Below are positions 6,561 through 24,966 of a DNA stretch of 32,268 nucleotides, in pieces. The notes beneath the pieces were generated by a model. The model searched no databases, was not told the DNA's origin, and saw only the letters and a list, made by a program, of their open reading frames with translations. The stretch's first letter is position 1; each line of letters opens with the position of its first letter. Source of the DNA: Spirochaetaceae bacterium (GTDB taxonomy: Bacteria; Spirochaetota; Spirochaetia; Treponematales; Rectinemataceae); NCBI GenBank assembly GCA_026418115.1, contig JAOABY010000020.1, forward strand, positions 1-32,268, read 5' to 3'. Made by a program: the position numbers and the translations under genes.

Positions 6561-7934
6561 TCATGCAGAAGGCATCGAAGACTGCTTCTTTTTCTGTTTC
6601 TGCTCGTACATGAGGGTATCTGCCCGATGCAGAACCTCGTCGATTGACTGGTTGGTGGCATAGGACAGTGTCTCGATGCCCAGACTGATCGAGAGTGAGA
6701 AAGCTGCTTTGTGCTCGCTGTTGAATCTAGCAATCAGCGCTTGCAGACGCTCGATCAGCGCTTCGGGAATGAAACTGTCATTGATGAGGCCTATTACCGC
6801 AAACTCGTCTCCACCCAGTCGTGCGATGATATCGGTTTCGCGGAAAGCCTGACGGAGGCATCCGGCGATAGCCTGAATGGCATTGTCTCCTTCGATATGG
6901 CCGAGTGTATCATTAATGTGCTTGAGCCCGTCGAGGTCTCCAAACAGGATAAACAGGTTTGACTGCATGCGACGGGCGAGCTTGAGCATCCGTTCTGAGA
7001 GCAGCTTGAAGCCGCGTCGATTATACAGGCCCGTAAGGTCATCAGTCAGGCTCATCTGTTCCAGTTCCTTGCGGAGCTGAATTGCTTCGGTGATATCGCG
7101 GAGGACGGCGAGCGTCATCATCTCACCATCCCAGTCGGTGCTGACTGAGCGTACGTCAAGATAAACCGTGTTACCATAGGGATCCTGGATTTCGAGTTCA
7201 CTCTGTCCCGTGAGATCCTGTTCTACGGGTACTGCAGCTCCCATCAGCGCCTTGCCATTTGAGAAGAGAGCATGGGCGGCAGGATTGGCGTATCGGACTA
7301 TGTGATTTCTATCAAATACCAGAATGGCATCCTTGCTGGTCTCGAGAAGCTGGCGGTAGTTGCGCTGGAGAGTGATGATGTTATCAAGAGCTTCCTTGAG
7401 TTTATTGTTGGCTACAAAGAGTTCCTGGTTCTTCTGGATGGCGCTCTCATAGGTGGAGAGCAGGAAATCGATCATCTGTATCCGGGTTGAGTTGATGAAA
7501 TATTTCTTGCCGGCGAAAAAGACCTCGATGCCTATGTCGCTGCCCCGCTGGCGGCGGATCTCCTGGTTGGCGAGAATGTAGCGAATGCGTGAAATGAGCG
7601 CCTGCTCATTGTATGGCTTGGTGGTGAAATTGTCCGCTCCAGCTTCCAGCGCACGGATGACGTCAGTGGGGTCGGAAAGGGTGGTCACGAGCATGACCGG
7701 AATGTCTCTGAGCCGTTCGTCTGCTCGTATTCTTCTGCAGAGATCATACCCGTTCATCTTTGGCATCATGACATCGGTGATTATGAGGTCTGGCAGGATT
7801 TTTTCCAGCATCAGCAGGGCTTCCTCGCCATTTGCCGCCACATGTACCTCGAAGCCTTCCGATTCGAGTACATAACGCAGCCGCATGGCCTGCGTGAGGC
7901 TGTCCTCTACCATCATGATCCTGATGTTTGCCAT
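6561..7934 (-). CDS. Response regulator diguanylate cyclase, REC-PAS-GGDEF (WspR-like)
   Basis: This is a 457-residue output protein. Residues 1-125 are a receiver domain with the VEDS acidic pocket, phospho-acceptor D54 (IITDVMMP) and K106 (TKPY). Residues ~160-195 look like a coiled-coil linker. Residues ~193-285 are PAS-like (LLETSKDAILVFDRN). Residues ~295-450 are a GGDEF domain with an intact RLGGDEF at 372-378 and an RxxD inhibitory site RETD at 365-368, exactly five residues before it. It should therefore make c-di-GMP from GTP and be product-inhibited. It is the last gene of the Wsp-type operon, 2 nt after cheB, and is the expected phosphorylation target of the CheA hybrid. It differs from classical WspR by the added PAS domain. 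Confidence 0.9.
   Translation of the reverse strand: MANIRIMMVEDSLTQAMRLRYVLESEGFEVHVAANGEEALLMLEKILPDLIITDVMMPKMNGYDLCRRIRADERLRDIPVMLVTTLSDPTDVIRALEAGADNFTTKPYNEQALISRIRYILANQEIRRQRGSDIGIEVFFAGKKYFINSTRIQMIDFLLSTYESAIQKNQELFVANNKLKEALDNIITLQRNYRQLLETSKDAILVFDRNHIVRYANPAAHALFSNGKALMGAAVPVEQDLTGQSELEIQDPYGNTVYLDVRSVSTDWDGEMMTLAVLRDITEAIQLRKELEQMSLTDDLTGLYNRRGFKLLSERMLKLARRMQSNLFILFGDLDGLKHINDTLGHIEGDNAIQAIAGCLRQAFRETDIIARLGGDEFAVIGLINDSFIPEALIERLQALIARFNSEHKAAFSLSISLGIETLSYATNQSIDEVLHRADTLMYEQKQKKKQSSMPSA
6567..6593 (+). terminator. Candidate terminator of the acyl-CoA ligase gene
   Basis: A short stem AGAA-(G)-GCA / TGC-TTCT with an 8 nt loop is followed by TTTT and further T-rich sequence. 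It lies 18 nt after the ligase stop, inside the 3' end of the convergent cyclase gene. The stem is only 7 bp, so confidence is moderate. Confidence 0.35.
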
Positions 7935-7936
7935 TC

Positions 7937-9031
7937 TCAGACCTCTCTTTCCGGCGTTGCATGGATGCCGAAGATCGCGAGCAGTATATCAGAAATTCTT
8001 TCGGGAGGAAGATGACGCATTGCAGCACCAAGTCTCTCTGCTTCACCCGGCATGCCATAGACCACGGAGCTCTCTCTATCCTGTGCCAGGGTAATGCAGC
8101 CCATCTGCCGGAGCCTCAGGAGTCCCTGCGCGCCATCTTTTCCCATTCCCGTGAGCAGGATACCGATTGCGTGTCTGCCACATTGCCCCGCTACCGACAG
8201 AAAAAGAGTATCGATTGATGGAATGATGAGATCACGGGAATTGGCGAGTCTGTAGCGGATGTGTCCTCCCTCTCCGATGATCAGGTGGACATCGTTGGGT
8301 GCGATGTAGACGGTGCCGGGCATGGGATCTTCGCCATCTTCGGCCAGCTTGCAGCGAATCGAGCATGTGTTGTCGAGCCATGTGGCGAAATGCTGCGCGA
8401 AGCCTGAAGCGATATGCTGCACGACAAGTATGGGAACTGGAAAATCCGCCGGGAGTCTGGAGAGGATTTCCTGCACTGCGGGGGGGCCTCCGGTAGAGGC
8501 ACCCAAGGCTATGAGTTTCGGCATCGACTCCTGCGGAATTGGAAAGGGAGGCAGGTCCCCCAATTGTGAGTCGATCGGTGTGTGCCCGTACGAAGGTTTG
8601 CGTGCGTCTGCTACCGGTCTTCGAGGGCGCACGGTGGCAGAGTTTCTCAGCAGGTCGGCGATCTCTCGCGCATGGAGATAGAAGTTGGGAGAACCAAATC
8701 CCGGTGGTTTGCCGACAGCGGCAACAGCACCCGCTCTCAGTGCCTTGAGCGCCTTTTCGGCAGAGGGGTAGTTGTAGGCATTGCTGATAATGACAATAGG
8801 GATGCTGTATCGTGCAAGGATGCTGCTGGTTGTCTCGTAGCCGTCCATGCCCGGCATTTCAATGTCCATGGTGATGACATCGGGGACACCAGAAGAAGGA
8901 TTGTCGAGATAGGCAAGAGCTTGATAGCCATCTCTTGCTTCAGCAACCACTTCGAGATCACCGGCGAGATGGCAGATGTATTTGAGTACCTGGCGGGAGA
9001 CAACCGAATCATCGACGATAAGCACCTTCAT
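7937..9031 (-). CDS. cheB: Chemoreceptor methylesterase CheB (WspF-like)
   Basis: This is a 364-residue protein with an N-terminal receiver (D56 in VITMDIEMPGMD) and a C-terminal CheB methylesterase domain. The catalytic triad is visible: S179 in ALGASTGGP, H206 in VVQHIASGF, and D299 in LLTGMGKDGAQG. The linker spans about residues 125-168. It removes methyl groups from receptor glutamates and resets sensitivity once phosphorylated by CheA. It lies 24 nt after the CheA-hybrid gene and 2 nt before the cyclase gene, the same position as wspF relative to wspE and wspR. Confidence 0.94.
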   Translation of the reverse strand: MKVLIVDDSVVSRQVLKYICHLAGDLEVVAEARDGYQALAYLDNPSSGVPDVITMDIEMPGMDGYETTSSILARYSIPIVIISNAYNYPSAEKALKALRAGAVAAVGKPPGFGSPNFYLHAREIADLLRNSATVRPRRPVADARKPSYGHTPIDSQLGDLPPFPIPQESMPKLIALGASTGGPPAVQEILSRLPADFPVPILVVQHIASGFAQHFATWLDNTCSIRCKLAEDGEDPMPGTVYIAPNDVHLIIGEGGHIRYRLANSRDLIIPSIDTLFLSVAGQCGRHAIGILLTGMGKDGAQGLLRLRQMGCITLAQDRESSVVYGMPGEAERLGAAMRHLPPERISDILLAIFGIHATPEREV

Positions 9032-9055
9032 CCTGCCATCTCCGGTTTTGTAAGC

Positions 9056-11398
9056 CTATATGAACCTGCGTATGGTTTCAAGCAGATTGTTCTGCACGAA
9101 ACCGCTCTTGGTGATGTAGGCATTCGCACCCACTGCGATGCCCTTCTCCTTGTGCTCCCGGGACTCGAGGCCTGTCACCAGAATCACGGGCAGCTTCGCG
9201 AGGGCGGGGTCCTGGCGGATACGCTCCGTAAGGCCAAAGCCGTCAAGCCGTGGCATCTCAACGTCAGATACTACGCAATCAAAGGGCTCGCTCTTGAGCA
9301 GTGTATAGCCTTCGATACCGTCGACCGCGGTCTGAACCTCGTATCCTGCGGCGCTGAGTATGGATTTCAGCAGCGTCCGGGATGTGACGGAATCCTCGAC
9401 GATGAGAATTCTCTTTTTTTTGCGTGATTCCTGGCGCGCAGCAGCAGGTGGAGCTGTCTCGGTACTCATGCTGAATGCGGAATCCAGAAGCTCATGCACA
9501 TTGAGGATGGGGATCGCCGCATTGCCGCCTGCTATGGTCGCTCCCTGTACCAGGCGCACATTCCCCAGCAGTGTGCCAAGAGGCCTGGTGAGCACGTCAT
9601 GTTCGCCATGCAGCTCATCTACGATGAAGGCGCATGCTCTGTCCTGATATCTGCAGACCAGCGCCAGCACATGGGCTGGTGTCTGCTGTTCCATGGAAGG
9701 CGGCAGCCCCAGAAGCGTTCCCAGATGCACAAGGCCGATGACCTCTCCATGAAAATCAATGACTTCGGCATTGCCTGCAGTCAGGATGTCCTGCTGCTGC
9801 ACCCTGACTGCCTGCACGACGGCAGCTGAAGGAATGACAAACCGCTGTCCCTGGACCAATACGAAATGCCCCTTGAAGGAGCTTTTCCCATAGGGGAGGG
9901 TTATGTGAAACCTTGTGCTCCGTCCCGGTACTGATTCCACATGGATGGACCCATCGAGCTCCTCGATGGCCTGTCTGACGATGGCCAGACCAAGTCCCCT
10001 GCCTGAGAGATCGGTAATGATGGGACTGGTTGAGAAGCCTGATGTAAACAGCAGATCGAGCAGTTGCTGTTCGGTTGCATTGCGTGCTTCATCCTCTGAA
10101 AACAGATTTCGTGCAACCGCGATCGCTCGTATGCGATCGAAATCGATTCCTCGACCATCATCGGTGATGGTGAGGTCGAGTTCTCTGGCATTGCGATGGC
10201 TTACGGTAATGGAGATGGTGCCTCTGGCAGGTTTGCCGAGTGCACGTCGTTCCTGGGGAGGCTCTATGCCATGATCTATGCTGTTGCGCAGGATATGCAT
10301 CAGAGGATCCTTGAGTTTTTCAAGGATCTTCTTCTCAAGTTCGATCTCCTGGCCTTTTATGTCCAGAGTCACTTCCTTGCCGAGGCTTCTGGCAATTTCA
10401 CGTGCAGCGAGAGGAAAAGCATCAAAAATATAGGCGCAGGGCAGCATGAGGAGAGACTGTGCGTCTTCGATCAAGGTGTCTATGAGGTTGTTGGCGGTGA
10501 TTGACTCCTGATCCACGCGATGCTGGAGACTTGCAAGCGATGCCTGGATCTCCCGCAGCGTTTGAGCATCAATCGTGCGTTCAGAAAGCTGCAGCAGTAT
10601 CTCCTTGAGTGTCGCATGTGTTTCCTGCAGCACCTGCTTGACCGTGATGAGATTCTCAGCGGTACGCAGCAACTTGTCCATTCGTTGGCTTGCTACCCGG
10701 ATCGTGGCGGCAATCGGTTGCTGCTGGGATACCTGCTGAGCTATCGTGTGCCGGTGTTCCTGATGAGCTGGCAAAAATGGCGCAGCTTCAGTTCCTTCGC
10801 TCTGGCTCACTCCAGCCTGTTGCAGTTGTTCCTGCTGTGTCCCTGTTTCATGAACAGATGCCGGTCTTGGGTGTTCCTTCGGGGGAGCAGCCTGATGCTC
10901 GGCTGGAGCAGTATCAGTTGCAGTCTGCTCGGGTCCTGCATACTCATGCTCCAGCATGGAGGACATGGGTCTCTTCAGGATTTTCTCAGCCTTTGCCAGT
11001 GCAAGATCATTGCGAAGAAGCCCTTCAAGCCCGGCAGCGAGGTCGGATAGGATATTCGGACCAACCACCTCTCCTGCAAGCATCTTTTCGACTGCCTGCA
11101 GCGTCGCATGGAGTGCATCCAGAAGCTCTCCGGAAACCAGGACTTGCTGGTGCTGCAGGGCTGCAAACGCACTTTCCATGGAATGACAGAGATATTCTAT
11201 GTCCTTCAGATCGACTGCGCGTGCAGCGCCCTTGAGACTGTGTGCAGCTCTGAACGCCTCCTCAATGATGGCTGTATCAATGCTTCCGTGCGCCTGTTCC
11301 ATGGCAATCAGAGAACCGGCAATTGTGCGCACATGTTCCTGCGATTCGAGAGCGAATGCTGTCCGCAGCTGCTGCAGGAACTCTTCCTGATTGATCAT
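9056..11398 (-). CDS. CheA-type hybrid histidine kinase with receiver domain (WspE-like)
   Basis: This 780-residue protein has, in order, an Hpt domain (H53 in AAHSLKGAA), a Gln/Pro-rich linker (~150-235), a dimerisation helix region, a HATPase core (N box LRNSIDHGIEPP, DDGRGID, GRGLGLAIV), a CheW-like P5 domain, and a C-terminal receiver with D712 (VVSDVEMPRLDG) and K764 (ITKSG). The CheA-REC fusion is typical of Wsp, Frz and similar alternative-function pathways rather than plain flagellar chemotaxis. The extra receiver may act as a phosphate sink or second output. It sits 21 nt after the receptor gene and upstream of cheB, and should phosphorylate both CheB and the GGDEF regulator. Confidence 0.93.
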   Translation of the reverse strand: MINQEEFLQQLRTAFALESQEHVRTIAGSLIAMEQAHGSIDTAIIEEAFRAAHSLKGAARAVDLKDIEYLCHSMESAFAALQHQQVLVSGELLDALHATLQAVEKMLAGEVVGPNILSDLAAGLEGLLRNDLALAKAEKILKRPMSSMLEHEYAGPEQTATDTAPAEHQAAPPKEHPRPASVHETGTQQEQLQQAGVSQSEGTEAAPFLPAHQEHRHTIAQQVSQQQPIAATIRVASQRMDKLLRTAENLITVKQVLQETHATLKEILLQLSERTIDAQTLREIQASLASLQHRVDQESITANNLIDTLIEDAQSLLMLPCAYIFDAFPLAAREIARSLGKEVTLDIKGQEIELEKKILEKLKDPLMHILRNSIDHGIEPPQERRALGKPARGTISITVSHRNARELDLTITDDGRGIDFDRIRAIAVARNLFSEDEARNATEQQLLDLLFTSGFSTSPIITDLSGRGLGLAIVRQAIEELDGSIHVESVPGRSTRFHITLPYGKSSFKGHFVLVQGQRFVIPSAAVVQAVRVQQQDILTAGNAEVIDFHGEVIGLVHLGTLLGLPPSMEQQTPAHVLALVCRYQDRACAFIVDELHGEHDVLTRPLGTLLGNVRLVQGATIAGGNAAIPILNVHELLDSAFSMSTETAPPAAARQESRKKKRILIVEDSVTSRTLLKSILSAAGYEVQTAVDGIEGYTLLKSEPFDCVVSDVEMPRLDGFGLTERIRQDPALAKLPVILVTGLESREHKEKGIAVGANAYITKSGFVQNNLLETIRRFI

Positions 11399-11419
11399 GA
11401 TCGGCCTTCCGGAGTCCGC

Positions 11420-13045
11420 CTAGAGTTGGTAGCGCTCTATCAGGGACTTCAGTCTGGCGCTGAGATCCTTGATCGAATTGACGGCCTGCTCCAGATTGCG
11501 AGCCGCCTCGACATTCTGTGTGCTTGCTGTCTTGATGTTATCCATTGCCATGTTGATCTGGTCGATGCCCGTGAACTGCTGTTCGTTGGCATAGGTAATC
11601 TGATGGATGAGCTGAGTGCTGCCTGTGATCGAGTCGGCAAGGGTCCGGATGGCTGCATTTACTTCCTGCGATCTCTGAACACCACTTGCAACTTCCTTGT
11701 TCCCCTGTTCTGTTGCCATGATGGCGCTTGAAGTCGCTTTCTGAATATCGGAAAGTATCTTTCTGACCTGCCGGGTCGACTGCTTGGATTGCTCAGCGAG
11801 CGATTTGACCTCCTGTGCAACGACGGCAAAGCCCTTACCATGTTCTCCTGCCTTGGCAGCCTCGATAGCGGCGTTCACTGCCAGCAGATTTGACTGCTCC
11901 GCAATGTCATCCACTGCTGCGATGATTTCAGCAATTGCCTGGCTCTGTTCGCTCAGATTGAGGATGGACTGCGCAATCTTCTCCATCTGGTCCCGTATGC
12001 GGGTAATGCTGTCAGACATCGACCCCAGCGAGGAAAGCCCTTCCTTGCTGATTTCGGAAGTATGGGCTGTAGCCTCGGTCACATTGCGGGCGAGGTCTCT
12101 GGTGGTTTCCGCAACCTGACGTATTTCCTCGGCCGTTGTCGCGGTCTCTGCAACCGATGCGGCGGTTTCGCTGGCTGATGAGCTGAGCTGGGCGCTGGTA
12201 GCACTTATTTCATTGGATGATGTGGCGAGATGCAGCACCATCTGACTCATTTCTGCAATCTGCGTCTTGAAACTCGTGAGGAAATGTTCAAATGCCTCAA
12301 TGAGTGTACCTATTTCATCCTTGCGGCGGTCGCCGAGCTCGATGTTCTGCAGGTTGCCCGACGCTACGGTCTTCAGATTCGCAATGAGCCTGTGGAGGGG
12401 ACGCACTATGTTTTCCCCCATTATCAGAGCAATCAGCACGCCGAGTACCAGAGCTGCAACATTGAGAATGACGGTCAGGACAACCGTATTCCGAAGTATT
12501 GTCTGCATTTCTTCGTAGTGGCTTCTTGCCCTGTCCATGGCAAGACGATCGAGCTCGGCAGCCTGTTCCTGCAATACGGTGAGCAGCGGTTGCACACTTC
12601 CGGAATGGTAGGCGAGCATTTCTTTTATATTTCTTGCTCTCTTGAATGTGATCATGGTTTCCAGCGCAGGCGCAAGATTCTGCGCAGTCTCAGCCAGCAT
12701 GGTGCGTGTCTGACGACCTTTGTCGGTTTCCAGTCTGGCGGTAGCGGCCTCGAGATTGCTCTGTATGCCGGCAAGGGATCTGGTTATTGCAGCAGAGGCA
12801 TTTTCGGTGTCCTGAGCAGATGCTGCATCGAGGAGTGCCATTAGATTGAGTTCAAGCTCCGCACTCTGGTATCGTGTATCCAGTGCAAGCTGGACTACAG
12901 CGAGGTTGTTCTCATACATGCTCCTGGCCGCTCTGCCAGTATTTTCGAGCGATATGATCGACAGGATTCCCAGTCCCGTCATGAATATGAATACCAGTCC
13001 AAAGGCAATGATCAGTTTGATGCGGATTTTCAGGTCTTTGAACAT
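11420..13045 (-). CDS. Methyl-accepting chemotaxis receptor (WspA-like)
   Basis: This is a 541-residue transmembrane receptor. TM1 is at about 10-32, followed by a ~155-residue helical extracytoplasmic domain resembling the four-helix-bundle MCP sensor type. TM2 is at ~187-209, then a HAMP domain, then the cytoplasmic coiled coil with the conserved hairpin tip [19 protein letters not shown] (383-400 region) and [18 protein letters not shown]. The ATG at 13045 is chosen for its GGGAGGAAA ribosome site; the frame runs further upstream only over the preceding cheW gene. The C-terminus ends ERYQL, with no NWETF-type CheR tether. The receptor gene lies fourth among the Wsp-like genes instead of first as in Pseudomonas. 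Confidence 0.92.
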
Positions 13046-13061
13046 GACTGGCTTTCCTCCC

Positions 13062-13610
13062 TCAATTCTTCTGAACTGCAGTTTCGAGTATGCTGAACAT
13101 GGCTTTCGGATCGAGCAGCACGAGACCATGGGGCCCCATGCCGGCACTACATTGTGTCACTCTGCTGTTCTGAGCTGCAGGATGCTGCTGGAGAGCATTC
13201 CGTGGCAGATTTCTGATGCGCCTGATGCCTGCACAGGCAAAAGCCACCACTTTCTCTCCTTCTGCAAGTACAATGAGAAAGTGCAGTTCCTCTCGAGATG
13301 GCTGAAGGCCGAGCAGCATTGCCAGGTCGATCACCGGAACGATTTCACCTCGAATGTTGACGATGCCTCTATAGGGGGCAGGCAGCCCTGGCACAAAGGT
13401 CAGCGGCAGCGTATTGCGAAGCGCTTCTCTGGTCTGCTCTATGGGAATGGCAAATGAAGACCCATTGAGCGTGAATTCAAGGCATGTGAATGTCTCATCC
13501 TCTACAGCCGGGGCAGGTGGTGACTTTGCAAGCTCGCGGGCTCTTTTCCTGAGCAGCGTGGCAGACTGCAGGGCCGGGGAGCCTTCCTGGTGTTTCTCAT
13601 CCTTCATCAT
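13062..13610 (-). CDS. CheW-like coupling protein (second copy)
   Basis: This 182-residue protein has a disordered N-terminus (~1-35), then a CheW fold: [19 protein letters not shown], the [20 protein letters not shown] core motif, and a C-terminal [10 protein letters not shown] strand. CheW proteins link receptor and CheA kinase. The start overlaps the cheR-TPR stop by 14 nt and has no clear Shine-Dalgarno, so re-initiation from cheR is likely; the ATG at 13607 is an alternative. The [21 protein letters not shown] region corresponds to a variable loop. It is one of two CheW genes flanking cheR, matching the WspB/WspD arrangement. Confidence 0.9.
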
Positions 13611-15180
13611 ACTGTTGCAGCAATGCCTTGATCATGGATGTCATCGCACCGGCTGGGATACCCTCCGAGCCTGGCACTGGATCGTTCTCTTTCATTTTCG
13701 ACAGAAAATACAGGGCATTTGAGTATTGTTTGCGCATTACGTCATAATTGCCCAGGCCGGCAGCGCATTCTGCAAGGGCAACATACCCGACAATGCTGTC
13801 TGGCTGGAGAAAGAGCAGTTTCTGAAGATCCTCGGAAGCGGATCTGTAATCTTTCGTATTCATGCTCACGACCGCCCGGTAGTAATAGAGGTCGGCTTCC
13901 GCTGGCTGTTCAGTAATGAGGTGGCTGAGCTCGTCCCATGCCTCGGCGTATCGACCCAGATCGGCCAGCGCACGCGCATGACTGGCGGAACGGCCGGATA
14001 CTTCGGGGGGTAGGGGATCGTTTGCCTTGTTCTGATTGTTGTCGTCAGACAAGGCAGGACTGCCATTTATATCCTTGCTCGTCCTCTCATGGCCCATGCT
14101 ATGCCCGGATACATGATGCTGGGTCGGGGCCTCCTTCAGGTCCATCCTGCCGGAAGGATCTGGCGTCAGCGGTCTGGCCTTCTGTCTCAAGAGGGAAGAG
14201 CTGACGTTGGTCCTGTCACCCAGCCTGTCCTTCGGAGGAACAGCTTGCAGGGTTCCCCATGTCCTGTTGCCCGACAGGACAAAAATGCTGCCCTTTCCGG
14301 AGATCAGAGGTCTGAAACAGGAATCATTGAGCGTCCAGGATTCGCTTGGTCCTACTACAAGTACTCCTTCCGGGTCCAGCAACCGTGCAAATCTGTGCAG
14401 AAGACCATGAATCTGGGGTCTGTTGAAGTAAATCGCTACATTGCGACAGAGAATGAGATCAAAGCTCCTGCCGTCAACCAGACTTCCACTCCAGTCGGAA
14501 GCATGGAGATTGAGTTCGCCAAATGTGACAAGCCTTGCAATGGATGCATCGAGCTGGTAGCGCTGAAGATGTGGCAGTACTGGAACCTGGGGGGTGCTCT
14601 GGAATATAGGCGTGAAATAGCGGGAACGGACTTCCTCGGACATCCCACGGAAGGACCACGCTCCATAGATGGCCTTTCGTGCGAAGGCCAGAGATTCAGG
14701 GTTGAGATCTGTGGCGAGAATGGAGATATCCCACTGTTCATCCGCCGTAAGACACTCGCTGAGGGTAATTGCCAGAGAATATGCTTCTTCTCCCGTACTG
14801 CAGCCTGCAGACCAGCATCGAATCTGCCTTCTGTTGGCTGTGGCAGGATTCCGTCTGCGCAGGTGCGGAATGAATACCTCTCTGACCCATCGGAAATGTT
14901 CGGGATGTCGAAAGAAATAGGTTTCGCTCACCGTGCAGTGGGGCACCACGATGCGCATGACGTCATGTTCCATGGGAACTTTGCAGCAAAGCCTTATGGC
15001 GTCCTCAATTGGGAGGCTCGTATGCATGGCGAGCTCCCTGACTGCTCTGGAGAGCGCAGAGATATGGACTGTGCCTCGCTTTATTCCAAAATTGTGGAGG
15101 AGTGAGAGTTCCAGCTGTTCCTGCCAACGCGTGATCAGGGGATCAATGTCGGTATACTGACCCAGCTGATCATGCTTCAT
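13597..15180 (-). CDS. CheR methyltransferase with C-terminal TPR repeats (WspC-like)
   Basis: This is a 527-residue protein. Residues ~20-290 are a CheR S-adenosylmethionine-dependent glutamate O-methyltransferase: the SETYFFRHPEHF segment at 85-96, the SAM motif RCWSAGCSTGEEAYSLA at 121-137, ATDLNPESL, and FDLILCRNVAIYF. A polar linker (~330-420) follows, then about three tetratricopeptide repeats (~425-515), with DLGRYAEAWDELSHLI and YYRAVVSMNTKDYRSA. The TPR tail is the hallmark of WspC/FrzF-type enzymes. The start at 15180 follows GGGGAG at ~10 nt. It lies 7 nt after the first cheW and is coupled to the second. Confidence 0.93.
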   Translation of the reverse strand: MKHDQLGQYTDIDPLITRWQEQLELSLLHNFGIKRGTVHISALSRAVRELAMHTSLPIEDAIRLCCKVPMEHDVMRIVVPHCTVSETYFFRHPEHFRWVREVFIPHLRRRNPATANRRQIRCWSAGCSTGEEAYSLAITLSECLTADEQWDISILATDLNPESLAFARKAIYGAWSFRGMSEEVRSRYFTPIFQSTPQVPVLPHLQRYQLDASIARLVTFGELNLHASDWSGSLVDGRSFDLILCRNVAIYFNRPQIHGLLHRFARLLDPEGVLVVGPSESWTLNDSCFRPLISGKGSIFVLSGNRTWGTLQAVPPKDRLGDRTNVSSSLLRQKARPLTPDPSGRMDLKEAPTQHHVSGHSMGHERTSKDINGSPALSDDNNQNKANDPLPPEVSGRSASHARALADLGRYAEAWDELSHLITEQPAEADLYYYRAVVSMNTKDYRSASEDLQKLLFLQPDSIVGYVALAECAAGLGNYDVMRKQYSNALYFLSKMKENDPVPGSEGIPAGAMTSMIKALLQQYDEG

Positions 15181-15187
15181 GTCTCTG

Positions 15188-15706
15188 TCACTCCCCTGAG
15201 ATAGCCTGGACGGATGCAGCAGGGTGGTCCTGCAGTTCTTCCGCAAAGAAGGCTCCTGTATCATAGAGCATCGCCAGATTGTCCGCGAATTTCACGATGC
15301 CCGAGATCATTGATATCCCTGGAAGAATCGCTTCCGCATCATGGAAAGTCGCTTCATCCAGATGCACGACGCCGGCTACTTCCTCAACATGGAGCACGAG
15401 CTTCTTTCCGTCAATCGCAATCATGATGAACTGATGGCTGGGATCGATCTCTGTGGCGATGTGTTCGCACTTCATGCGCATGTCGAGCACAGGCACTATC
15501 TGGCCGTGAATATTCACAACACCTTTAATAGTGGGGAGCGATTGGGGTACCGGTGTCACTTCACATGCGGGATAGATATAGACTATGTCATCGACATCGA
15601 GGCAGTAGAAGCGATTGCCCGTGCGGAATACACATGCCTGCCTTTTGGGTCGGGATTGGTCGTCGGGCTTGTGAGATGAAGATGCTGATGCAGCCATGGC
15701 AGCCAC
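15188..15706 (-). CDS. CheW-like coupling protein (first copy)
   Basis: This protein has 172 residues if the GTG at 15706 is used, or 169 from the ATG at 15697; neither has a strong ribosome site. The gene starts 4 nt after the DUF59 gene, so coupling is likely. The CheW fold is visible: CVFRTGNRFYCLDVDDIVYIYP, then LPTIKGVVNIHGQIVPVLDMR, then KKLVLHVEEVAGVV and ISGIVKFADNLAMLYD. The first ~25 residues are Ala/Ser-rich and probably disordered. It is sequence-divergent from the second CheW gene, so the two may serve different partners, as proposed for WspB and WspD. Confidence 0.9.
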   Translation of the reverse strand: MAAMAASASSSHKPDDQSRPKRQACVFRTGNRFYCLDVDDIVYIYPACEVTPVPQSLPTIKGVVNIHGQIVPVLDMRMKCEHIATEIDPSHQFIMIAIDGKKLVLHVEEVAGVVHLDEATFHDAEAILPGISMISGIVKFADNLAMLYDTGAFFAEELQDHPAASVQAISGE

Positions 15707-15710
15707 GGTT

Positions 15711-15983
15711 TCATTCGACTATGATGGTGAGGTCAGGGAAGGCCTCCTGAAATGCCTCCAGGGCGCGCCGGCGTATTCCCTCGAGTACCACTGTGTTGAG
15801 CGCAGAGCATGCAGGACACTGGTAGGGCAGCAGGCCGGTCACCAGAGCGATCAGAAGTGTGTTTTCTTTCTGGCTGTAGGTGATTTTCTCGACCAGGCCG
15901 AGGTCGGCAATGGGAACATCAGATTGGGGTTCCCGTACTTTCGCGAGAGTCTCGTCAATCTTCTTTTTCATCTCGGGGTCCAT
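15711..15983 (-). CDS. DUF59/MIP18-family small protein
   Basis: A 90-residue protein whose DVPIADLGLVEKITY segment and LLPYQCPACSALNTVVLEGI region match the DUF59 (MIP18, PaaD/SufT-like) fold; such proteins take part in iron-sulfur cluster assembly. The single CPAC motif gives two nearby cysteines. The start at 15983 has GAGGAGG about 5 nt upstream; the longer frame from 16037 has none. It is placed immediately before cheW with a 4 nt gap, so it is co-transcribed with the chemosensory genes. Why an Fe-S-type factor should sit there is unclear. Function is inferred from the fold only. Confidence 0.78.
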   Translation of the reverse strand: MDPEMKKKIDETLAKVREPQSDVPIADLGLVEKITYSQKENTLLIALVTGLLPYQCPACSALNTVVLEGIRRRALEAFQEAFPDLTIIVE

Positions 15984-16099
15984 GATAGCCTCCTCTGGTG
16001 AGCACCACGATCGAGAGCAGGATCCTGGCGCCCGCATCCCTCACGCTGGAAACAGGTAAAGCTGTCACAGGCCGGTTTCCCTCTTCCAGCCCTTCAATA
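15984..16099 (-). other. 116-nt intercistronic gap within the 11-gene operon
   Basis: This is the only sizeable gap in the operon. On the minus strand GGAAAC and GTTTCC can pair around a ~21 nt interior. There is no T-tract and no convincing promoter. It may be an mRNA processing or stability element; I see no gene in it. Confidence 0.3.
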
Positions 16100-16726
16100 C
16101 TACCTGAAATACTCCGCGCATTGTACCATGAAGGCTTCGAGATTTCGTTCTATGTTGCCGTTCTTTGGCCGCAGGAACAGGAAGAATGCCTTGTTCTCGT
16201 CAAAGCAGGTAAAGTGGACAAGGGTCTCTGGTTCCGGCATTGCCTGCAGCGTACGATGCAGGGCATCACGAAGATCAGCATGTCTCCATGCAAGTGTAAA
16301 GGTTTTGCCTCCACGCTCGACTTCTTCAGTTTCCATCTCCTCGAAGCCATCGATTTTTGCTTTTCGCAGATGCTGCTGCTCAATGATATGACCTTCTCCC
16401 GCAAGTCTGCGGTCGGTGAACAGATTCAGATAGAAACGATCCGAGCTTCCGATGAGAAGAGAGATAGGCATGTAGAGAAGCGAGTGACGCGGGAAGAAAG
16501 TAAAGGTTCCCTTTGCCTCTTTCCATGGTTCACGGAGCTTGTACTTGATGTGGTAGCCTATGGCGCCACCGATATTGACATACTCGGTATCTCTGGGTTG
16601 GAGAATGTTCTCAGCCTGCGTCGACATGCGCTTGCCGAGCCAGCGATTCTTTTTCACGCCAAGGAAATAGTTCAGTGTAGCGCCGACACCAAGCAGCACC
16701 AGTGCAGTAAACAGGAATGGATTCAT
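16100..16726 (-). CDS. Unknown membrane-anchored protein, 208 aa
   Basis: I do not recognise this family. Residues 2-24 form one hydrophobic segment (PFLFTALVLLGVGATLNYF) followed by a basic stretch, so the soluble ~185 residues are most likely cytoplasmic (N-out/C-in anchor). The body has mixed alpha/beta character, with a FTFFPRHSLLYMPISLLIGSSDRFYLNLF region and a late HFTCFDENKAFFLFLRP strand. The start overlaps the ATPase stop as ATGA. Constant co-directional placement between an ArsA-like ATPase and the chemosensory genes suggests a role with the ATPase, for example as its membrane partner. This is inference. Confidence 0.75.
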   Translation of the reverse strand: MNPFLFTALVLLGVGATLNYFLGVKKNRWLGKRMSTQAENILQPRDTEYVNIGGAIGYHIKYKLREPWKEAKGTFTFFPRHSLLYMPISLLIGSSDRFYLNLFTDRRLAGEGHIIEQQHLRKAKIDGFEEMETEEVERGGKTFTLAWRHADLRDALHRTLQAMPEPETLVHFTCFDENKAFFLFLRPKNGNIERNLEAFMVQCAEYFR

Positions 16727-17649
16727 TTTTGACTGCCTTTCTTGAGGAAGTATTCTACGAGTGATGCCATGCCTATGCGGACAAGGTCTTCACGTGATCC
16801 GATGCCCTCGCGAGTAAAGTCAAAATCGAATCGGGTCAGCCTGGCAAGCTGCGGAGCCAGCTCCCAAGCTGCATCCGACACTCCCTGCTTGTTGACACAG
16901 AGTGCTTCAAGAGGAAGGCCGAATTTGTCAAGCTCATCCTTGATTCGCACTGCCTCCGATACCGAGAGCTCATCCGGATTGACAATCACTGACATGAAAC
17001 TCTTTTTCGTGAAGAGTGTGGCGAGCGCGGCAAGCCGTTTACGGATAGTGGTGAGTGTGCCATATACCCTGTCGTCTTCCTTGTCTACACAGCTTTCTGC
17101 AATCGGTGAAACAGGATTGATCTGGCTGATGGTGTTTCGTTTCTCCAGGATGCGCTCACGCAGCTTGATGAGCTCCGTGACCCACAGTTTCGAGATGAAG
17201 GGCAATGAGAGGAAACGCAGCGAGAGGGCGGTTGGCGGGGTATCGAACACCACGTACTCGTAGTTCGGAGCCAGATGACAGTGCACATCCTCAATGGCCC
17301 AGAGGACGGCATATTCTTCCGTACCTGGAGAGTACTTCAGAATATTGAAGAAGGAGTCGAGGTTCAGCGTAAGATTGTAGGAATAGTTTTCCTTGAGCTG
17401 GCGCCTGGCGTCTTCCAGGTATCGCTCTACCCACGAAGAGAGGCTCACCTCCATTGCATCGAGATTGGGTTCAACAGTACGGGGCTTGCTGTCAAGTCTG
17501 GCAGAAAGGGCATCTCCCAGATTATGCGCAGGATCGAGAGAAGCAATGAGCACCCGCTTGCCCATGCGTGCAAGTTCGAGCGCGAATGCACTTGAGAGCG
17601 TTGTCTTGCCTACGCCCCCCTTGCCCAGGAAAAATACCGTATCTTTCAT
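16723..17649 (-). CDS. ArsA/Get3-like ATPase
   Basis: This is a 308-residue P-loop ATPase of the SIMIBI class. The deviant Walker A FLGKGGVGKTTLSS is at residues 7-20, the switch I DPAHNLGDAL at ~39-48, and the switch II FDTPPTALSLRFLSLP near residue 135. These patterns match ArsA/Get3 (anion pump ATPase / tail-anchored protein targeting) better than ParA or MinD. It lacks the paired CxxC zinc motif of eukaryotic Get3 dimers. It is a single-ATPase-domain form, and no arsB or arsR is nearby, so arsenite export is unlikely. It lies 11 nt after the 93-residue gene and overlaps the next gene. The client or cargo is unknown. Confidence 0.88.
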   Translation of the reverse strand: MKDTVFFLGKGGVGKTTLSSAFALELARMGKRVLIASLDPAHNLGDALSARLDSKPRTVEPNLDAMEVSLSSWVERYLEDARRQLKENYSYNLTLNLDSFFNILKYSPGTEEYAVLWAIEDVHCHLAPNYEYVVFDTPPTALSLRFLSLPFISKLWVTELIKLRERILEKRNTISQINPVSPIAESCVDKEDDRVYGTLTTIRKRLAALATLFTKKSFMSVIVNPDELSVSEAVRIKDELDKFGLPLEALCVNKQGVSDAAWELAPQLARLTRFDFDFTREGIGSREDLVRIGMASLVEYFLKKGSQK

Positions 17650-17660
17650 GACAATTCCTC

Positions 17661-17942
17661 TCAGTCTATCTGCAGCATATCCATGAGCGTCGCAAGCGGA
17701 TCCTGCGAGAGATCGGTGCGAGAAAGCAGAACAGTGAGTTCACGCTCCATGTACGGCAGCAACTCTATGGCGATCGGTGCCGGTGGAGAAGGCAATCCTG
17801 CAAAACCACCCAGAATCAGCAAGGCGAAGATGTTTTCAAGCTCCTTGAGCTCGAATTCAATGATATTGGTTGCCTTCTCACGATTCACCTGTACGGCTGT
17901 CAGATATGCCTGTTTGAGAATGTGTTTCAGTTTGCGTACCAC
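17661..17942 (-). CDS. Unknown small protein, first gene of the chemosensory operon
   Basis: A 93-residue protein with no family I recognise. I chose the GTG at 17942 because GGAGGAG lies 5 nt before it; the frame is open upstream but runs through the cstA terminator and this operon's own promoter. The N-terminus is basic (RKLKHILKQ), residues ~25-35 are acidic and helical, and a hydrophobic, Pro/Gly-rich stretch follows (IFALLILGGFAGLPSPPAPIA). It could be a membrane-associating partner or client of the ArsA/Get3-like ATPase encoded 11 nt downstream. Function unknown. Confidence 0.72.
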   Translation of the reverse strand: MVRKLKHILKQAYLTAVQVNREKATNIIEFELKELENIFALLILGGFAGLPSPPAPIAIELLPYMERELTVLLSRTDLSQDPLATLMDMLQID

Positions 17943-18165: not shown

Positions 18166-19860
18166 TCATGCCTTCGCGGGCTGTCCCTTCCAGTTCTTGA
18201 GGAAGCTGTTGATCATGATGAAGTTGAGGATGAGCATGAACAGGGTGATGGCGCCAACGACTGTACCAGTGATGACATTCATCGACTTGCTCATATCCCT
18301 GAAGAAGACGGGGATGATGGTGACTTCATACCAGATGAGCGCCGAGGTCACGGTTACCCACAGGAAGATGCCGGGGATGATGACGGAGGCCACATAGGCG
18401 GGATTCAGCTTGCGCTTGACCCATACGGCAACCGTCAGCATGACCACCGAGGCGAGCAGCTGGTTCGCCCCGGAGAATGCCGGCCACAGAACGGTATAGC
18501 CGCCAGAGCGTGCAAGGAAGATACCCACGAACGCGATCGTAATGGATGCAACCCACTTGTTCTCGAAGAACTTGTAGAGGCCGGGGTTCTTTTCCTTGAG
18601 CGGCAGGGCCATCTCCTGGACGAGGTAGCGGCCGAGACGGTTGGTGGTGTCCAGCGTGGTCAATGCAAAGGTCGAGACCCAGACTGCCGAGAACAGGGTC
18701 ATGAAGCTCATGGGCAGGAAGGGCAGATTGGTGCTGACCATCTTCGCGAAGGACTGCACAAAGCGGCCAAGAGCTGGGGTAGTCATCAGTTTGTCGCCGA
18801 GGGCAGCAGAACCAAATGCAGCGATTGAGGTTACAACGAGGGTCGACAGGAAGCCCTCAGTCAGCATGGCACCGTAGCCTACGAACAATGCATCTTTCTC
18901 TTCCTTGAGCTGCTTGGAGCTGGTACCGGAAGCGACCAGTGCATGGAAGCCGGACAGTGCACCACATGCAATGATCAGAGGTACCGTCGGCCAGAATGGC
19001 GAGGGCTGCAGTGCTCCCGCAGGACCGATCAGTTTTGCACTGAAGCTGGTGAAAGCCGGAATCGAGGTGAACGGAGCTGCGCTGATCAATGCGGAAATAC
19101 CACCAACAATAAGACCAAAATACAGGAAGAACGAGGACAGATAGTCACGAGGCTGCAGCAGCAGGTTGACCGGCAGCGTGGATGCAAGAACAATATATAC
19201 AAATATAATCAGGAAATAGACATCCTTGCTCCACTTGACAGGGAACTTGTCACCAGCCCAGAACGCGATGATGACCAGCACGATACCAATGATCGAGCCC
19301 CAGCCGAGGCCGAGCTTGGTCTTGTACATGAAGTAGCCTGCAATGACCGCAGCTATGCAGAAGAATACGAACGCCCAGAAGACACGGCCATCTGCAGCGA
19401 ACTGACCTGCGACGATGTCACCGAATGCCGCTACGACCAGAATGCAGAGGAAGAGCGTAAACCAGCCAAAGGTCTTGCCGGCTTTCTTTCCGATCAGGTC
19501 CTGGGCGACAAACTGCACCGACCGTCCATCGTAGCGGACTGATGCTGCGAGTGCCAGATAGTCATGGATGGCGCCAAGGAAGATGTTACCCAGCCAGATC
19601 CACAGCAGGCCGGGAAGCCATCCCCAGGCGACTGCCATAGCCGGACCGGTGATGGGGCCAGCACCAGCAATCGAAGCGAAATGGTGGCCAAACAGGACGT
19701 ACTTGGATGTCGGCACATAGTCGACACCATCAGCCAGCCTCTTGGATGGCGCTTCCGGCGCCTCCCCGCTCTTGAGCACCTTGTCCCTGATTACCTTTCC
19801 ATAAATGAAATAGAAGGCCAGGTAGATGCCAAGCGCGATAAGAGCAACCAAAGTTGACAT
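18166..19860 (-). CDS. cstA: CstA-family carbon starvation / pyruvate transporter
   Basis: This is a 564-residue polytopic inner-membrane protein. The family signature VLFGHHFASIAGAGPITGPAMA lies near residue 60, followed by LLWIWLGNIFLGAIHDYLAL, and about 15 or more hydrophobic segments cover the whole length. CstA/BtsT proteins import pyruvate or peptides under carbon limitation. The length fits the shorter CstA form rather than the ~700-residue E. coli protein. The start at 19860 has GGAGGG 4 nt upstream; the open frame upstream covers the promoter. It is a single gene with its own promoter and terminator. A carbon-starvation transporter between the chemosensory and polysaccharide units may be coincidental. 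Confidence 0.93.
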   Translation of the reverse strand: MSTLVALIALGIYLAFYFIYGKVIRDKVLKSGEAPEAPSKRLADGVDYVPTSKYVLFGHHFASIAGAGPITGPAMAVAWGWLPGLLWIWLGNIFLGAIHDYLALAASVRYDGRSVQFVAQDLIGKKAGKTFGWFTLFLCILVVAAFGDIVAGQFAADGRVFWAFVFFCIAAVIAGYFMYKTKLGLGWGSIIGIVLVIIAFWAGDKFPVKWSKDVYFLIIFVYIVLASTLPVNLLLQPRDYLSSFFLYFGLIVGGISALISAAPFTSIPAFTSFSAKLIGPAGALQPSPFWPTVPLIIACGALSGFHALVASGTSSKQLKEEKDALFVGYGAMLTEGFLSTLVVTSIAAFGSAALGDKLMTTPALGRFVQSFAKMVSTNLPFLPMSFMTLFSAVWVSTFALTTLDTTNRLGRYLVQEMALPLKEKNPGLYKFFENKWVASITIAFVGIFLARSGGYTVLWPAFSGANQLLASVVMLTVAVWVKRKLNPAYVASVIIPGIFLWVTVTSALIWYEVTIIPVFFRDMSKSMNVITGTVVGAITLFMLILNFIMINSFLKNWKGQPAKA

Positions 19861-19891
19861 GAAGCCCTCCTCTGAAACGATTGGATACACC

Positions 19892-19921
19892 ATTCTAGAT
19901 TCAATATATGTCATCAGTCAA
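19892..19921 (-). promoter_or_regulatory. Sigma70-type promoter of cstA
   Basis: On the minus strand there is TTGACT (19921-19916), an 18 nt spacer, and TAGAAT (19897-19892). The predicted leader is about 25 nt. It overlaps the divergent promoter of the polysaccharide operon. Confidence 0.6.
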
Positions 19922-19936
19922 ATGGTTTTTTATACT
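19908..19936 (+). promoter_or_regulatory. Candidate promoter of the polysaccharide operon
   Basis: There is ATGTCA (19908-19913), a 17 nt spacer, and TATACT (19931-19936). The -10 matches 5 of 6 and the -35 4 of 6. The predicted start near 19943 leaves a ~105 nt structured leader. Because the -35 regions of the two divergent promoters interleave, one bound regulator or polymerase could affect both. Confidence 0.45.
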
Positions 19937-19943
19937 TTTGCAG

Positions 19944-20015
19944 CGGCAGGGGATCCTCAGTGCATACAGGTGCCTGCACTGCATATTCATCCAGCTGCCG
20001 GCTTGTGGACGGCAG
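19944..20015 (+). promoter_or_regulatory. Structured 5' leader with mutually exclusive stems
   Basis: CAGTGCA (19958-19964) pairs with TGCACTG (19975-19981) as a perfect 7-bp stem. CTGCCG (19995-20000) can pair either with CGGCAG at 19944-19949 or with CGGCAG at 20010-20015, giving two exclusive folds. The ribosome site of the first gene lies ~20 nt further on. It does not match the c-di-GMP-I riboswitch consensus as I know it. Confidence 0.35.
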
Positions 20016-20047
20016 GATTTGCTCCTAGAATCAAAGCAGGAGAGTCC

Positions 20048-21868
20048 ATGCATCTTTCTGCAGGCCCGACTGAGCTTGATGCCGGATTGTTCTGGGTTGG
20101 ATCCCATATACTGAACGAGCGGCTTCAGACCAATATCTATCTCCTCAAGACTGGTGGAACAGCCGTGCTGTTCGGCCCAGGATCCGTGCTGATGGTGCCC
20201 GAGGTCGTCGACAATGTAGAGAGAATTGCGAGCAGCAGCGCTGTTACCCTTGCAGTGATTCAGCAGCCTGATCCCTGCCTCGTCTCGGGAATCGCGCTGT
20301 TCGAGAGGGCAGGGTACCGCTTCAGAATTGCCACAGCGAGTGCGCTGTGGGGGGCGTTGCGCGCATTCGGAGCGCTGTCCTCACCGCTCTTCGTAGATGA
20401 TCTTGGATGGAAACTCGATGCCGGCCAGGGGAACGTCCTGGAATGCGTGCCCATGCCATATGTGACGAGTCCCTATGCATTCGCGGTCTACGATCCTAGA
20501 AGCGGCACCCTTTTTTCGGGCGATCTCTTCTCGACATTCAGCAGGGAAGTGATGCTGCATTCCTCTCCTGAGCTGCCTGCAGAAGCCATGCGCCGCTATC
20601 ATGCACTGATGGTTCCCTCGGGAGCTGCGCTCACTGCGGCTCTTGAGCATCTGAAGACCAGAAAGATTCGGAGAATCTGCCCGGCTCATGGGCCTGTAAT
20701 TCCTGACTCCCAGGTTGCTGCTGCATTCAATGCACTGGAAGGCCTGACATGTGGAGAGTTGCTCTCCGACATGGCACAGGAAGGCCGTATTGCTGCTCAT
20801 TCCGAAAAGCTCAGGCTCATTGGCCCTGGCTTCAGAAGCAGACCTCATGCTTCCGATGAAGAACACGCCGAGATCAACCGCCTTCTGGGGGAAATAGAGC
20901 GACTTCGCAGAATCAACGAACAGCTGAATCGCACGATAGAGATTTCGAGGAACCGCTCAATCAGGGACTCTCTCACCGGGCTCTATGAAGAGGAATTCTT
21001 CAAGTCGCTGGTTGAAGAGGAAGCAGCTCTCTCTGCACAGGACAGGGAGGGCAAGATGTATGCGCTTGGCGTAATCGGTATTGACAATGATCTTGCCATG
21101 CTGGAAAGCAGATACGGATCAGATGAGGTTGATCAGGTGCTGCGCGGGGTCGCGTCGGTAATAAACCGTCATATGCCGGCAAAGGGGCTTGCAAGCCGCC
21201 TTCATGGTGCCATGATGGGAGCATGGGCGGGCTTTGCCTCTCTGGAAGAAGCAGTGGCCATGTTCGACAGAATTCGCTATGACGTGAGCAATTCAAAATC
21301 CTTCGTAGAACCGATTACCATTTCGGTCGGGATGGCGACAGTAGGAGAATTGATACCTGCTCATGCAGACCTTACCAGACTGGCAACCGCTCTCATTGAT
21401 CTCGCGATCCAGCGCATGCGGCTCGCACGAACACGAGGTGGCAACAACATCTGCTCCATGACAAGCGTGCCATCACTGGAGCAGAGAGGAGGCAGAGGGC
21501 GCATCCTGCTCATCGATGATGATGAGACGAACAGAGGCATACTGGCAGTGCTGCTTGGCAATGAGGAGTATGAAATCCTGCAGGCATCAGATGGCTATCA
21601 GGCACTGGAGAAAACAGAGCAGGAATCGGTCGATGTCATCGTGACTGAACTCATGCTTCCCAAAATGGATGCTTTCCGGCTGAAAGAGCTGCTCAAGGCT
21701 GCATCCTCAACCAAGGATATTCCAGTCATTGTCATTTCACATCTCAAGAATGAAACCTCCGTGCGTCGCGCATACGGGCTCGGTATAAGCCATTATCTTC
21801 AGAAACCCATTCTTCCGGAGGAACTCCTGGGCATCATCAGGAATCTCATTCCTGCAAGGGGCGGCTGA
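20048..21868 (+). CDS. Degenerate MBL(ODP-like)-GGDEF-REC signalling protein
   Basis: This is a 606-residue protein with three domains. Residues ~1-235 resemble the oxygen-binding di-iron (ODP) metallo-beta-lactamase fold, but the metal motif reads QQPDPC (72-77) where H and D ligands are expected, and PYVTSPY (137-143) replaces a PYxHSPG-type segment; SGDLF (157-161) and CPAHG (H214) are kept. After a coiled-coil linker, residues ~300-460 form a GGDEF-like domain starting DSLTGLYEEEFF, with the active site reading RLHGAMMG (384-391). Residues ~485-602 are a receiver with E534 (VTELMLP) in place of the phospho-acceptor Asp, while DDD (490-492) and K586 remain. All three activities are probably lost. 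The ATG at 20048 has AGGAGAG upstream. Its TGA overlaps the next ATG. Confidence 0.88.
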   Translation: MHLSAGPTELDAGLFWVGSHILNERLQTNIYLLKTGGTAVLFGPGSVLMVPEVVDNVERIASSSAVTLAVIQQPDPCLVSGIALFERAGYRFRIATASALWGALRAFGALSSPLFVDDLGWKLDAGQGNVLECVPMPYVTSPYAFAVYDPRSGTLFSGDLFSTFSREVMLHSSPELPAEAMRRYHALMVPSGAALTAALEHLKTRKIRRICPAHGPVIPDSQVAAAFNALEGLTCGELLSDMAQEGRIAAHSEKLRLIGPGFRSRPHASDEEHAEINRLLGEIERLRRINEQLNRTIEISRNRSIRDSLTGLYEEEFFKSLVEEEAALSAQDREGKMYALGVIGIDNDLAMLESRYGSDEVDQVLRGVASVINRHMPAKGLASRLHGAMMGAWAGFASLEEAVAMFDRIRYDVSNSKSFVEPITISVGMATVGELIPAHADLTRLATALIDLAIQRMRLARTRGGNNICSMTSVPSLEQRGGRGRILLIDDDETNRGILAVLLGNEEYEILQASDGYQALEKTEQESVDVIVTELMLPKMDAFRLKELLKAASSTKDIPVIVISHLKNETSVRRAYGLGISHYLQKPILPEELLGIIRNLIPARGG

Positions 21869-24800: not shown

Positions 24801-24966
24801 GAGGGTCTTCGGTTTTTTGAATGCCATGAAAAAACCGGTTGGCTGGCAGAAATTCGATCGCATAGGGTTCGGGAAATCTGCTGCTCCCCAGCAGAAAGCG
24901 GACACCCGTAAGGATCCGAACACACCGCAGCCTGCAAAGAGTGGCGCGGGCAGCAGCGGGAGGTAG
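21868..24966 (+). CDS. Membrane GT2 polysaccharide synthase with HEAT-repeat N-terminus
   Basis: This 1032-residue protein has a TM helix at 6-28, then a ~460-residue helical-repeat (HEAT-like) region, then a BcsA/PgaC-like processive glycosyltransferase 2. GT2 motifs are VNDGS (D625), DAD (699-701), GED (812-814) and QRNRW (856-860). TM segments lie near 500-518, 545-563, 888-912 and 915-943. Within the HEAT region a Cys/His cluster (C248, C249, C252, H254, H263, H265, C266, C278) looks metal-binding. No PilZ domain is visible. It should polymerise and export a beta-linked polysaccharide from a nucleotide sugar. It is translationally coupled to the preceding pseudo-sensor (TGATG overlap). 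The polymer identity cannot be told from sequence. Confidence 0.9.
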   Translation: MNFPSELILLSCLVLFWLDIMVMVSVLLNKTRLLMQQADRDRQLHELPSLFAAGGGSSSQRAAKLLNNILFLTQNLQLGQDRKAKVFNRKALERFEKVQLRRLRRGSRMDRMDAARQLSALGTEKARLAIELAVLRERHYPTRLYLANALSDMHDLRSIPALVASLHGAHFWYRSKVNMLIASYGMDALLALRDHMDCEDIEIRELLVDLAGVIVSADLRDYLAALVRQAPMEITRLEKLEQSLPERCCFYCEHGRKKSDEMHRHCRFKGMVDNSFRCLRYRTLVTSIAPAASFRRLLGNAVTTLEKFFPSVLDDPVYLEHTDKVVRDAAIRALGSGSGERNVRRLVAFLGDDASAASARAGLRTLLDRQPRHIPLVARIFESSTGTLRSRLADVLSNRIEYIIGKLGSREANFAAGVLHELISMQRVSELVEFLKHNRDRNLEYKLLGLLESRLTDSEALRRECCLFLPDRLLDRLGLARIVPPARKREEKLDRKMVRNLVYILIGAVVLFPLLYVLRYYDSFTSMPLLLNLRYFVWNFNRDFAFYALTVNAVYLALMALSALNIRKSARLWELKTMSMLFKPRMLPSVSIIAPAYNEEKTIIESANSLLNLKYPDYELVIVNDGSKDNTLQTLIEYFSLKKTDFRFEPRLKHYPVRGIYTNPNLPRLIVVDKENGGKADSLNAGINIASKEYFCGIDADSLLEPEALLKIASLTLDHGVETPALGGNVFPINGCRVDHGSIESIGLPRRFLARVQLVEYMRAFMCARLGWDYLNALLIISGAFGLFRKERVVAVGGYLTSSGPYQRDTVGEDMELVVRLARHMREHKLKYRISYAYNANCWTEVPEDLTSLRKQRNRWHRGLIDIMHVHRKMLFNPRYGPAGTLAMPYYLLIEMIGPLFEIQGYLMVILAALFGMLSFRLALLLFLTAVLMGILVSMMAVRIAEHHAGYFGYRETLTMLWTAFIENFGPRQMFSIWRVFGFLNAMKKPVGWQKFDRIGFGKSAAPQQKADTRKDPNTPQPAKSGAGSSGR

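Follow-up and report, generated by a model that had tools for sequence, protein, structure and literature searches.

A chemosensory operon of the ACF class with a Wsp-like diguanylate cyclase output in a non-flagellated Rectinema

The operon and the genes ahead of it

The window, by which we mean the whole 32,268-nucleotide stretch of DNA analysed, carries at positions 6561-15706 seven genes on the minus strand that Pfam matches identify, in order, as CheW, CheR-TPR, CheW, MCP, CheA-REC, CheB and REC-PAS-GGDEF, the component types, order and strand that an earlier note on this DNA had described. The first CheW coupling protein (15188..15706; GTG start at 15706; Pfam CheW, 2.4e-20) has orthologues in the same place in the related genomes G002 and G009. 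The CheR-TPR methyltransferase (13597..15180; Pfam CheR, 3e-43, and TPR_2, 4.9e-6) has a weak but present TPR_2 match, 0.3 bits under the Pfam cut-off, and conserves the SAM-site and NVxIY residues of E. coli CheR; its start is probably the ATG at 15180 and not 15264, the start of the longest ORF, which begins inside cheW1. The second CheW coupling protein (13062..13610; Pfam CheW, 2.2e-22) is followed by the MCP (11420..13045), whose start should probably be moved from 13147 to 13045, and which consists of a transmembrane segment, a four-helix-bundle ligand domain, a second transmembrane segment, a HAMP domain and a signalling domain (Pfam 4HB_MCP_1, HAMP and MCPsignal, the last at 3e-39). 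Its signalling domain runs on for 146 residues past the tip, the same number as in Wsp MCPs, and compared with E. coli Tar both flanks of the tip carry an insertion of 14 residues; the domain thus has the length of WspA homologues, placing the receptor in the 40H class by length.

The hybrid kinase CheA-REC (9056..11398) comprises Hpt, a Pro/Gln linker replacing P2, and dimerisation, HATPase, CheW and REC domains (Pfam); His53 of Hpt, Asn372 of the ATP-binding domain, and Asp712 and Lys764 of REC are conserved in five operons. The CheB methylesterase (7937..9031; Pfam CheB_methylest, 2.9e-58, plus REC) has Asp56 and the Ser/His/Asp triad. Last comes the output, a REC-linker-PAS-GGDEF diguanylate cyclase (6561..7934; Pfam REC, 4e-28, PAS, 2e-6, and GGDEF, 3e-36), with the GGDEF motif, the RxxD I-site and the receiver Asp all intact. 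A residue alignment, in which the Rectinema subterraneum cyclase is truncated at a contig end, found the active and phosphorylation sites kept in the window and the related operons compared.

Ahead of the operon, also on the minus strand, lies a cassette headed by a CstA-type transporter (18166..19914; PF02554, 5e-128). It continues with a small helical protein (17661..17942) that is weakly 'cory-CC-star'-like (NF041419, 3.1e-4, below cut-off) and is kept between CstA and ArsA in relatives, an ArsA/Get3-type ATPase (16723..17649; PF02374, 5.9e-48; TIGR00345 above cut-off), and a membrane-anchored protein (16100..16726) that matched no Pfam or NCBIfam family. The last gene encodes a small MIP18/FeS-assembly-like protein (15711..15983, the start corrected to 15983; weak PF01883, 0.0036, and TIGR02945, 4.5e-4) and is conserved after the membrane protein mem208 in relatives without che genes.

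The small or negative gaps described earlier are there; the only gap of more than 25 nt, the 116 nt between 16100 and 15983, falls among the leading genes and not between che genes. The single promoter that the same note had placed ahead of the unit was not recovered, promoter-like matches over the region (11, against 8.3 +/- 2.7 in shuffled sequence) and terminator-like matches (12, against 10.2 +/- 4.1) showing no excess over shuffles, and an Rfam scan of the window gave no match.

Gene order, kinase lineage and class of the pathway

Is this gene order a reshuffled Wsp order, as first suggested? The arrangement CheW-CheR-CheW-MCP-CheA-REC-CheB-regulator recurs identically in two other Spirochaetota (G532 and G561), on plasmid TSH58_p02 of Azospirillum sp. 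TSH58 and in G017, from another genus. It is found with one extra MCP in the spirochaete G430, and nearly so on the Alteromonas plasmid pMIT1002, which has an extra small gene and lacks a same-strand regulator after cheB. The MCP-first order of Wsp was found in Mesorhizobium, Novosphingobium, Cupriavidus and Burkholderia; the MCP of the window is the fourth gene, and the conserved wspA-wspF synteny is thus absent. Gene-order variants of Wsp-like clusters have already been described in Halomonas (PMC5907407).

The kinase places the operon more precisely. In a maximum-likelihood CheA tree, which samples Proteobacteria thinly and contains no Desulfobacterota or Tfp-class CheA, the window groups with three Rectinema copies (100/100), then with G017 (99/98), then with the Spirochaetota operons G430, G561 and G532 (98/97), while the Wsp CheAs (100/100) and the spirochaete flagellar CheAs (100/100) form separate clades. 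Uniting the CheAs of the window group with those of Wsp is rejected by the AU test (p=0.0004), as is uniting them with the flagellar CheAs (p=4e-5). A tree of CheB alone agrees with the CheA placement (support 96), and a tree of CheA, CheB and CheR together supports the spirochaete grouping at 99/99 and 100/99 and Wsp at 100/100, with other lineages between the window and Wsp. The earlier note had regarded a grouping of CheA and CheB with the flagellar classes as fatal to its proposal; trees and AU test place them elsewhere. Its broader suggestion, a non-flagellar chemosensory pathway of the c-di-GMP type in a lineage distinct from the Wsp systems of Pseudomonas and Burkholderia, is supported by the same trees and tests. 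The label Wsp does not hold: Wsp is a supported clade of its own that the AU test keeps apart from this one, and neither the architecture of the cyclase nor its best PDB match is that of a WspR orthologue. Membership of the kinase lineage in Wsp was thus rejected on the CheA tree, the AU test and the concatenated tree.

The features of the locus are those of the ACF class: a multidomain response regulator with a non-motility output (REC-PAS-GGDEF) follows cheB, the CheA stands apart from the flagellar classes, lacks P2 and carries REC, and CheR is fused to TPR (with TPR_2 just under its cut-off). The kinase and adaptation proteins fall outside the Wsp clade, the output is a cyclase with a PAS domain and without a full-length WspR match, and the F class is not indicated either, with FliM/N not found in the genus and the CheA outside the flagellar class. 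By these sequence comparisons, assignment of the pathway to the ACF class with a Wsp-like output, as neither a Wsp member nor a flagellar system, is well supported.

Likeness to Wsp of Pseudomonas and Burkholderia is nonetheless extensive: the same seven component types, a 40H-length MCP, two CheWs, CheR-TPR, a CheA without P2 but with REC, CheB, and a REC-GGDEF output with an I-site. The differences lie in the position of the MCP, the lineage of CheA, CheB and CheR, the phylum, and the PAS domain and linker of the cyclase, both of which are missing in WspR. The Spirochaetota operons G430, G561 and G532 share with the window the nearest kinase lineage, the gene order and the REC-linker of the regulator, but in place of the terminal GGDEF their regulators have histidine kinases or a short domain containing Cys. 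Cluster 2 of Halomonas titanicae (PMC5907407) is likewise a Wsp-like ACF system with a cyclase output, a 40H receptor, CheR-TPR and CheA-REC; it differs in gene order, in its Hpt-REC-REC-GGDEF cyclase and CheY-like protein, and in its CheA branch (judged from Halomonas locus L063 as a proxy). The CheR-TPR/ACF superfamily survey of 2012 describes multidomain regulators, some combining REC with PAS and GGDEF, next to CheR-TPR, and lists Proteobacteria, Cyanobacteria, Chloroflexi and one Firmicute, with no mention of spirochaetes (PMC3447774); another survey restricts Wsp to beta- and gammaproteobacteria (PMC8552884). Other hybrid-CheA operons are present in many Spirochaetota, and the ACF pathways of the phylum are therefore broader than that of the window.

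The only chemosensory system found in a non-flagellated host, and the likely origin of its output

The host genome (2.17 Mb, 96% complete) belongs to Rectinema, the same genus as G002, which NCBI places in Rectinemataceae, Treponematales, Spirochaetota, and whose type species, R. cohabitans, has been described as a rod (PMC6052044). Searching directly with the CheA alignment also found contig WESA01000044.1 of R. subterraneum SURF-ANA1. In most of the order FliM/N is present, but searches of the genus's ten genomes and of those from six further family genera (g6, g7, g9, g12, g13 and g14) turned up none. Three flagellated family members carry 23-39 MCPs, and the non-flagellated members checked carry none or exactly one, the single MCP always being the operon's own. 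The window's genome has one PF00015 match and one CheR, and no further CheA was found in 19 of these non-flagellated genomes, only receiver-only or partial kinase matches, although individual gene absences are provisional because some genomes are incomplete. Since this non-flagellated genome lacks FliM/N and a second CheA and has a single CheR and a single MCP, the operon is the only chemosensory system found in it.

The full operon occurs in the window's genome, G002, G009 and G017, and partially, owing to a contig break, in G003. A CheR search of 394 genomes (E<=1e-40) returned three carriers, an underestimate because it missed G003, on its broken contig, and G017, both of which were found by CheA and diguanylate cyclase searches. 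In four congeners (G004, G005, G007 and G008) the site is empty, with the MIP18-like gene followed directly by a convergent AMP-binding gene, the same one that flanks the operon in the window. G001 retains the cyclase at this site, flanked by the MIP18-like and AMP-binding genes, with no CheA or MCP that we could find in a genome that is 71% complete; the cyclase may therefore function in the absence of the array. In G015 the cyclase stands without CheA at another locus, and G014, where the contig ends inside the gene, possibly also has a cyclase without CheA. A tree of neighbouring cassette genes, used as a proxy for the species tree, has a backbone without resolution.

Where, then, did the cyclase come from? 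The PDB entries that it matches best are PleD receivers, followed by the GGDEF domain of WspR alone; the regulator of Mesorhizobium, by contrast, matches WspR end to end. Its REC and linker share 50% identity with the regulator of G532, 46% and 43% with two kinases of G561 and about 41% with the cyclases of G431 and G564, and the linker alone matches regulators of the sister operons and not WspR. These sister regulators end in histidine kinase, class III nucleotidyl cyclase or PAS domains. Because the REC-linker is common to sister operons with kinase and class III cyclase outputs, we think it likely that GGDEF was put separately onto the REC-linker of an existing spirochaete ACF operon, and that a Wsp-like function was likely reached here by a route separate from that of Wsp. 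A GGDEF-only tree, in which the domain is short and the branches long, is compatible with kinship to WspR (AU p=0.34), and REC-only trees are likewise short and dominated by long branches.

The alternative that fares best is that the cyclase is an old resident to which the array was added later, and that its main control comes from its PAS domain or another kinase. The orthologues that stand without any CheA, in place in G001 and elsewhere in G015, speak for it, as does the greater conservation of the cyclase within the genus (69-80%, versus 42-61% for the Che proteins). We nevertheless find it unlikely: the REC-linker matches sister ACF regulators, suggesting that the cyclase descends from the regulator native to the operon, the full operon is present in another genus (G017), and the orphan cyclases have kept their REC sites.

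Less probable still is that a true Wsp system, with orthologues of wspA-F and R, was acquired horizontally by a spirochaete and its MCP gene relocated. The component list, the 40H-length receptor, the hybrid CheA-REC and the terminal GGDEF are what such a transfer would bring, and the GGDEF tree leaves a joint group with WspR open. Against it stand the AU rejection of a joint CheA clade, the lineages lying in between in the concatenated tree, the PAS domain and non-WspR linker of the cyclase, and its PDB matches, which unlike those of the Mesorhizobium regulator do not run along the length of WspR.

The earlier note took the four genes in front of the che genes to extend the pathway, and one could imagine all eleven genes working as one unit, with the ArsA-type ATPase and small proteins assisting the array, for instance by positioning it as ParA-like proteins do elsewhere. 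All eleven genes lie on one strand, and cheW1 follows the MIP18-like gene after only 4 nt, a junction kept in G002 and G009, so that shared transcription is plausible. Across the order, however, the CstA cassette is retained, and in nearly every case che genes are missing beside it. ArsA orthologues occur throughout the order (44-71% identical); the same membrane protein follows ArsA in all of 26 relatives' loci, with CstA before and the MIP18-like gene after in most where contigs allow, and che genes or the cyclase lie beside ArsA in just 3 of the 26. The empty sites of the four congeners and the separate location of the G017 operon, near PmbA/TldD, SAM synthetase and Rnf genes, argue in the same direction. 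We consider joint function very improbable; on this conservation of neighbourhoods, the leading genes belong to a cassette of CstA, small protein, ArsA, membrane protein and MIP18-like protein and are not parts of the pathway.

That the operon is a remnant of F-class chemotaxis re-used after flagella were lost, as they were in this clade among flagellated relatives, can hardly be entertained, given a CheA apart from those of spirochaete flagellar systems and the non-flagellar character of CheA-REC, CheR-TPR and the lack of CheY, CheX and CheD. Flagellar origin was ruled out by the absence of FliM/N together with the AU test.

Proposed working and biological meaning

In CheA systems, an MCP-CheW array sets the autophosphorylation of CheA, and CheR and CheB adapt the receptor. 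By analogy with this family, from which we infer phosphotransfer, cyclase activation and adaptation, the membrane MCP with its periplasmic four-helix bundle, coupled via the two CheWs, would control CheA-REC; phosphate would pass from His53 of CheA to Asp54 of the cyclase receiver and to CheB; the phosphorylated cyclase would make c-di-GMP; and CheR-TPR and CheB would adapt the receptor. The receiver on CheA could serve as a phosphate sink or a brake, and the receiver fused to FrzE has been reported as a brake (cited in PMC5907407). On the gene content, residues, order and lineage observed, with no second MCP or CheA found, we regard it as probable that the locus encodes a complete single-receptor ACF pathway of a non-flagellated Rectinema, running from array to CheA-REC to cyclase with CheR/CheB adaptation, in which GGDEF was added to a spirochaete ACF operon.

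What might the c-di-GMP act on? A search of seven genomes for PilZ effectors found none, and a search for c-di-GMP-I riboswitches gave no match, its controls being silent too. Divergent from CstA, at 19826..28199 on the plus strand, lies a cluster encoding an ODP-GGDEF(degenerate)-REC protein, a GT2 glycosyltransferase and a 1076-residue protein (Pfam ODP, GGDEF, REC and Glycos_transf_2), which is conserved in relatives and is adjoined in G015 by the orphan cyclase. It is possibly a polysaccharide cluster, and we would name it, speculatively, as a candidate c-di-GMP target. By eye, its large protein looks glycoside-hydrolase-like.

We tentatively suggest, with clearly less confidence than we place in the pathway itself, that Wsp-like signalling arose separately in these non-flagellated spirochaetes: an ACF operon gained GGDEF and was kept after the loss of flagella as a single-receptor system setting c-di-GMP, perhaps for the neighbouring polysaccharide cluster. 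A single receptor, the lack of motility and the absence of a rival array would allow signal, adaptation and c-di-GMP output to be followed here without cross-talk, and the genus, whose members carry the full operon, the cyclase only or an empty site, offers a natural experiment. More broadly, the locus suggests that among spirochaete ACF operons the output on one receiver-linker is exchangeable, be it a kinase, a class III cyclase or a diguanylate cyclase, and that a design like that of Wsp may have evolved more than once.

Gene clusters flanking the chemosensory operon

Beside the che operon lies the CstA cassette (15711-19914, minus strand), which encodes CstA, a small cory-CC-star-like protein, an ArsA/Get3-type ATPase, a membrane protein and a MIP18/FeS-assembly-like protein, and is conserved order-wide. 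Divergent from it, on the plus strand (19826-28199), a protein that combines an ODP domain, a degenerate GGDEF domain and a REC domain is followed by a GT2 glycosyltransferase, whose homologue in relative G015 carries HEAT repeats, and by a 1076-aa protein that matched no family. Relatives keep this cluster, which looks like a polysaccharide cluster.

The cyclases of relatives G001 and G014

In relative G001 the cyclase occupies the same locus as in the window (L044, 15225-16664) with all six che genes cleanly missing; its receiver and GGDEF residues are intact, and it is an orphan regulator. The cyclase of relative G014 (L111) is located at the type of locus seen in G017, a relative from another genus. 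The neighbour-gene tree, to which G014 contributes only 28% of columns, nevertheless puts its CstA-cassette sequences together with those of the genome that holds the window.

Related operons in other lineages

A published survey restricts Wsp to beta- and gammaproteobacteria (PMC8552884), yet two alphaproteobacterial plasmids carry operons in Wsp order: Mesorhizobium pMLb (L066, 4934-13334), whose regulator aligns with WspR over its full length, and a Novosphingobium humi plasmid (L064, 4988-13252). Numerous Spirochaetota possess hybrid-CheA operons (L115, L117-L127) that encode a regulator in which REC is joined to a class III adenylate/guanylate cyclase, a candidate chemosensory path to cAMP or cGMP.
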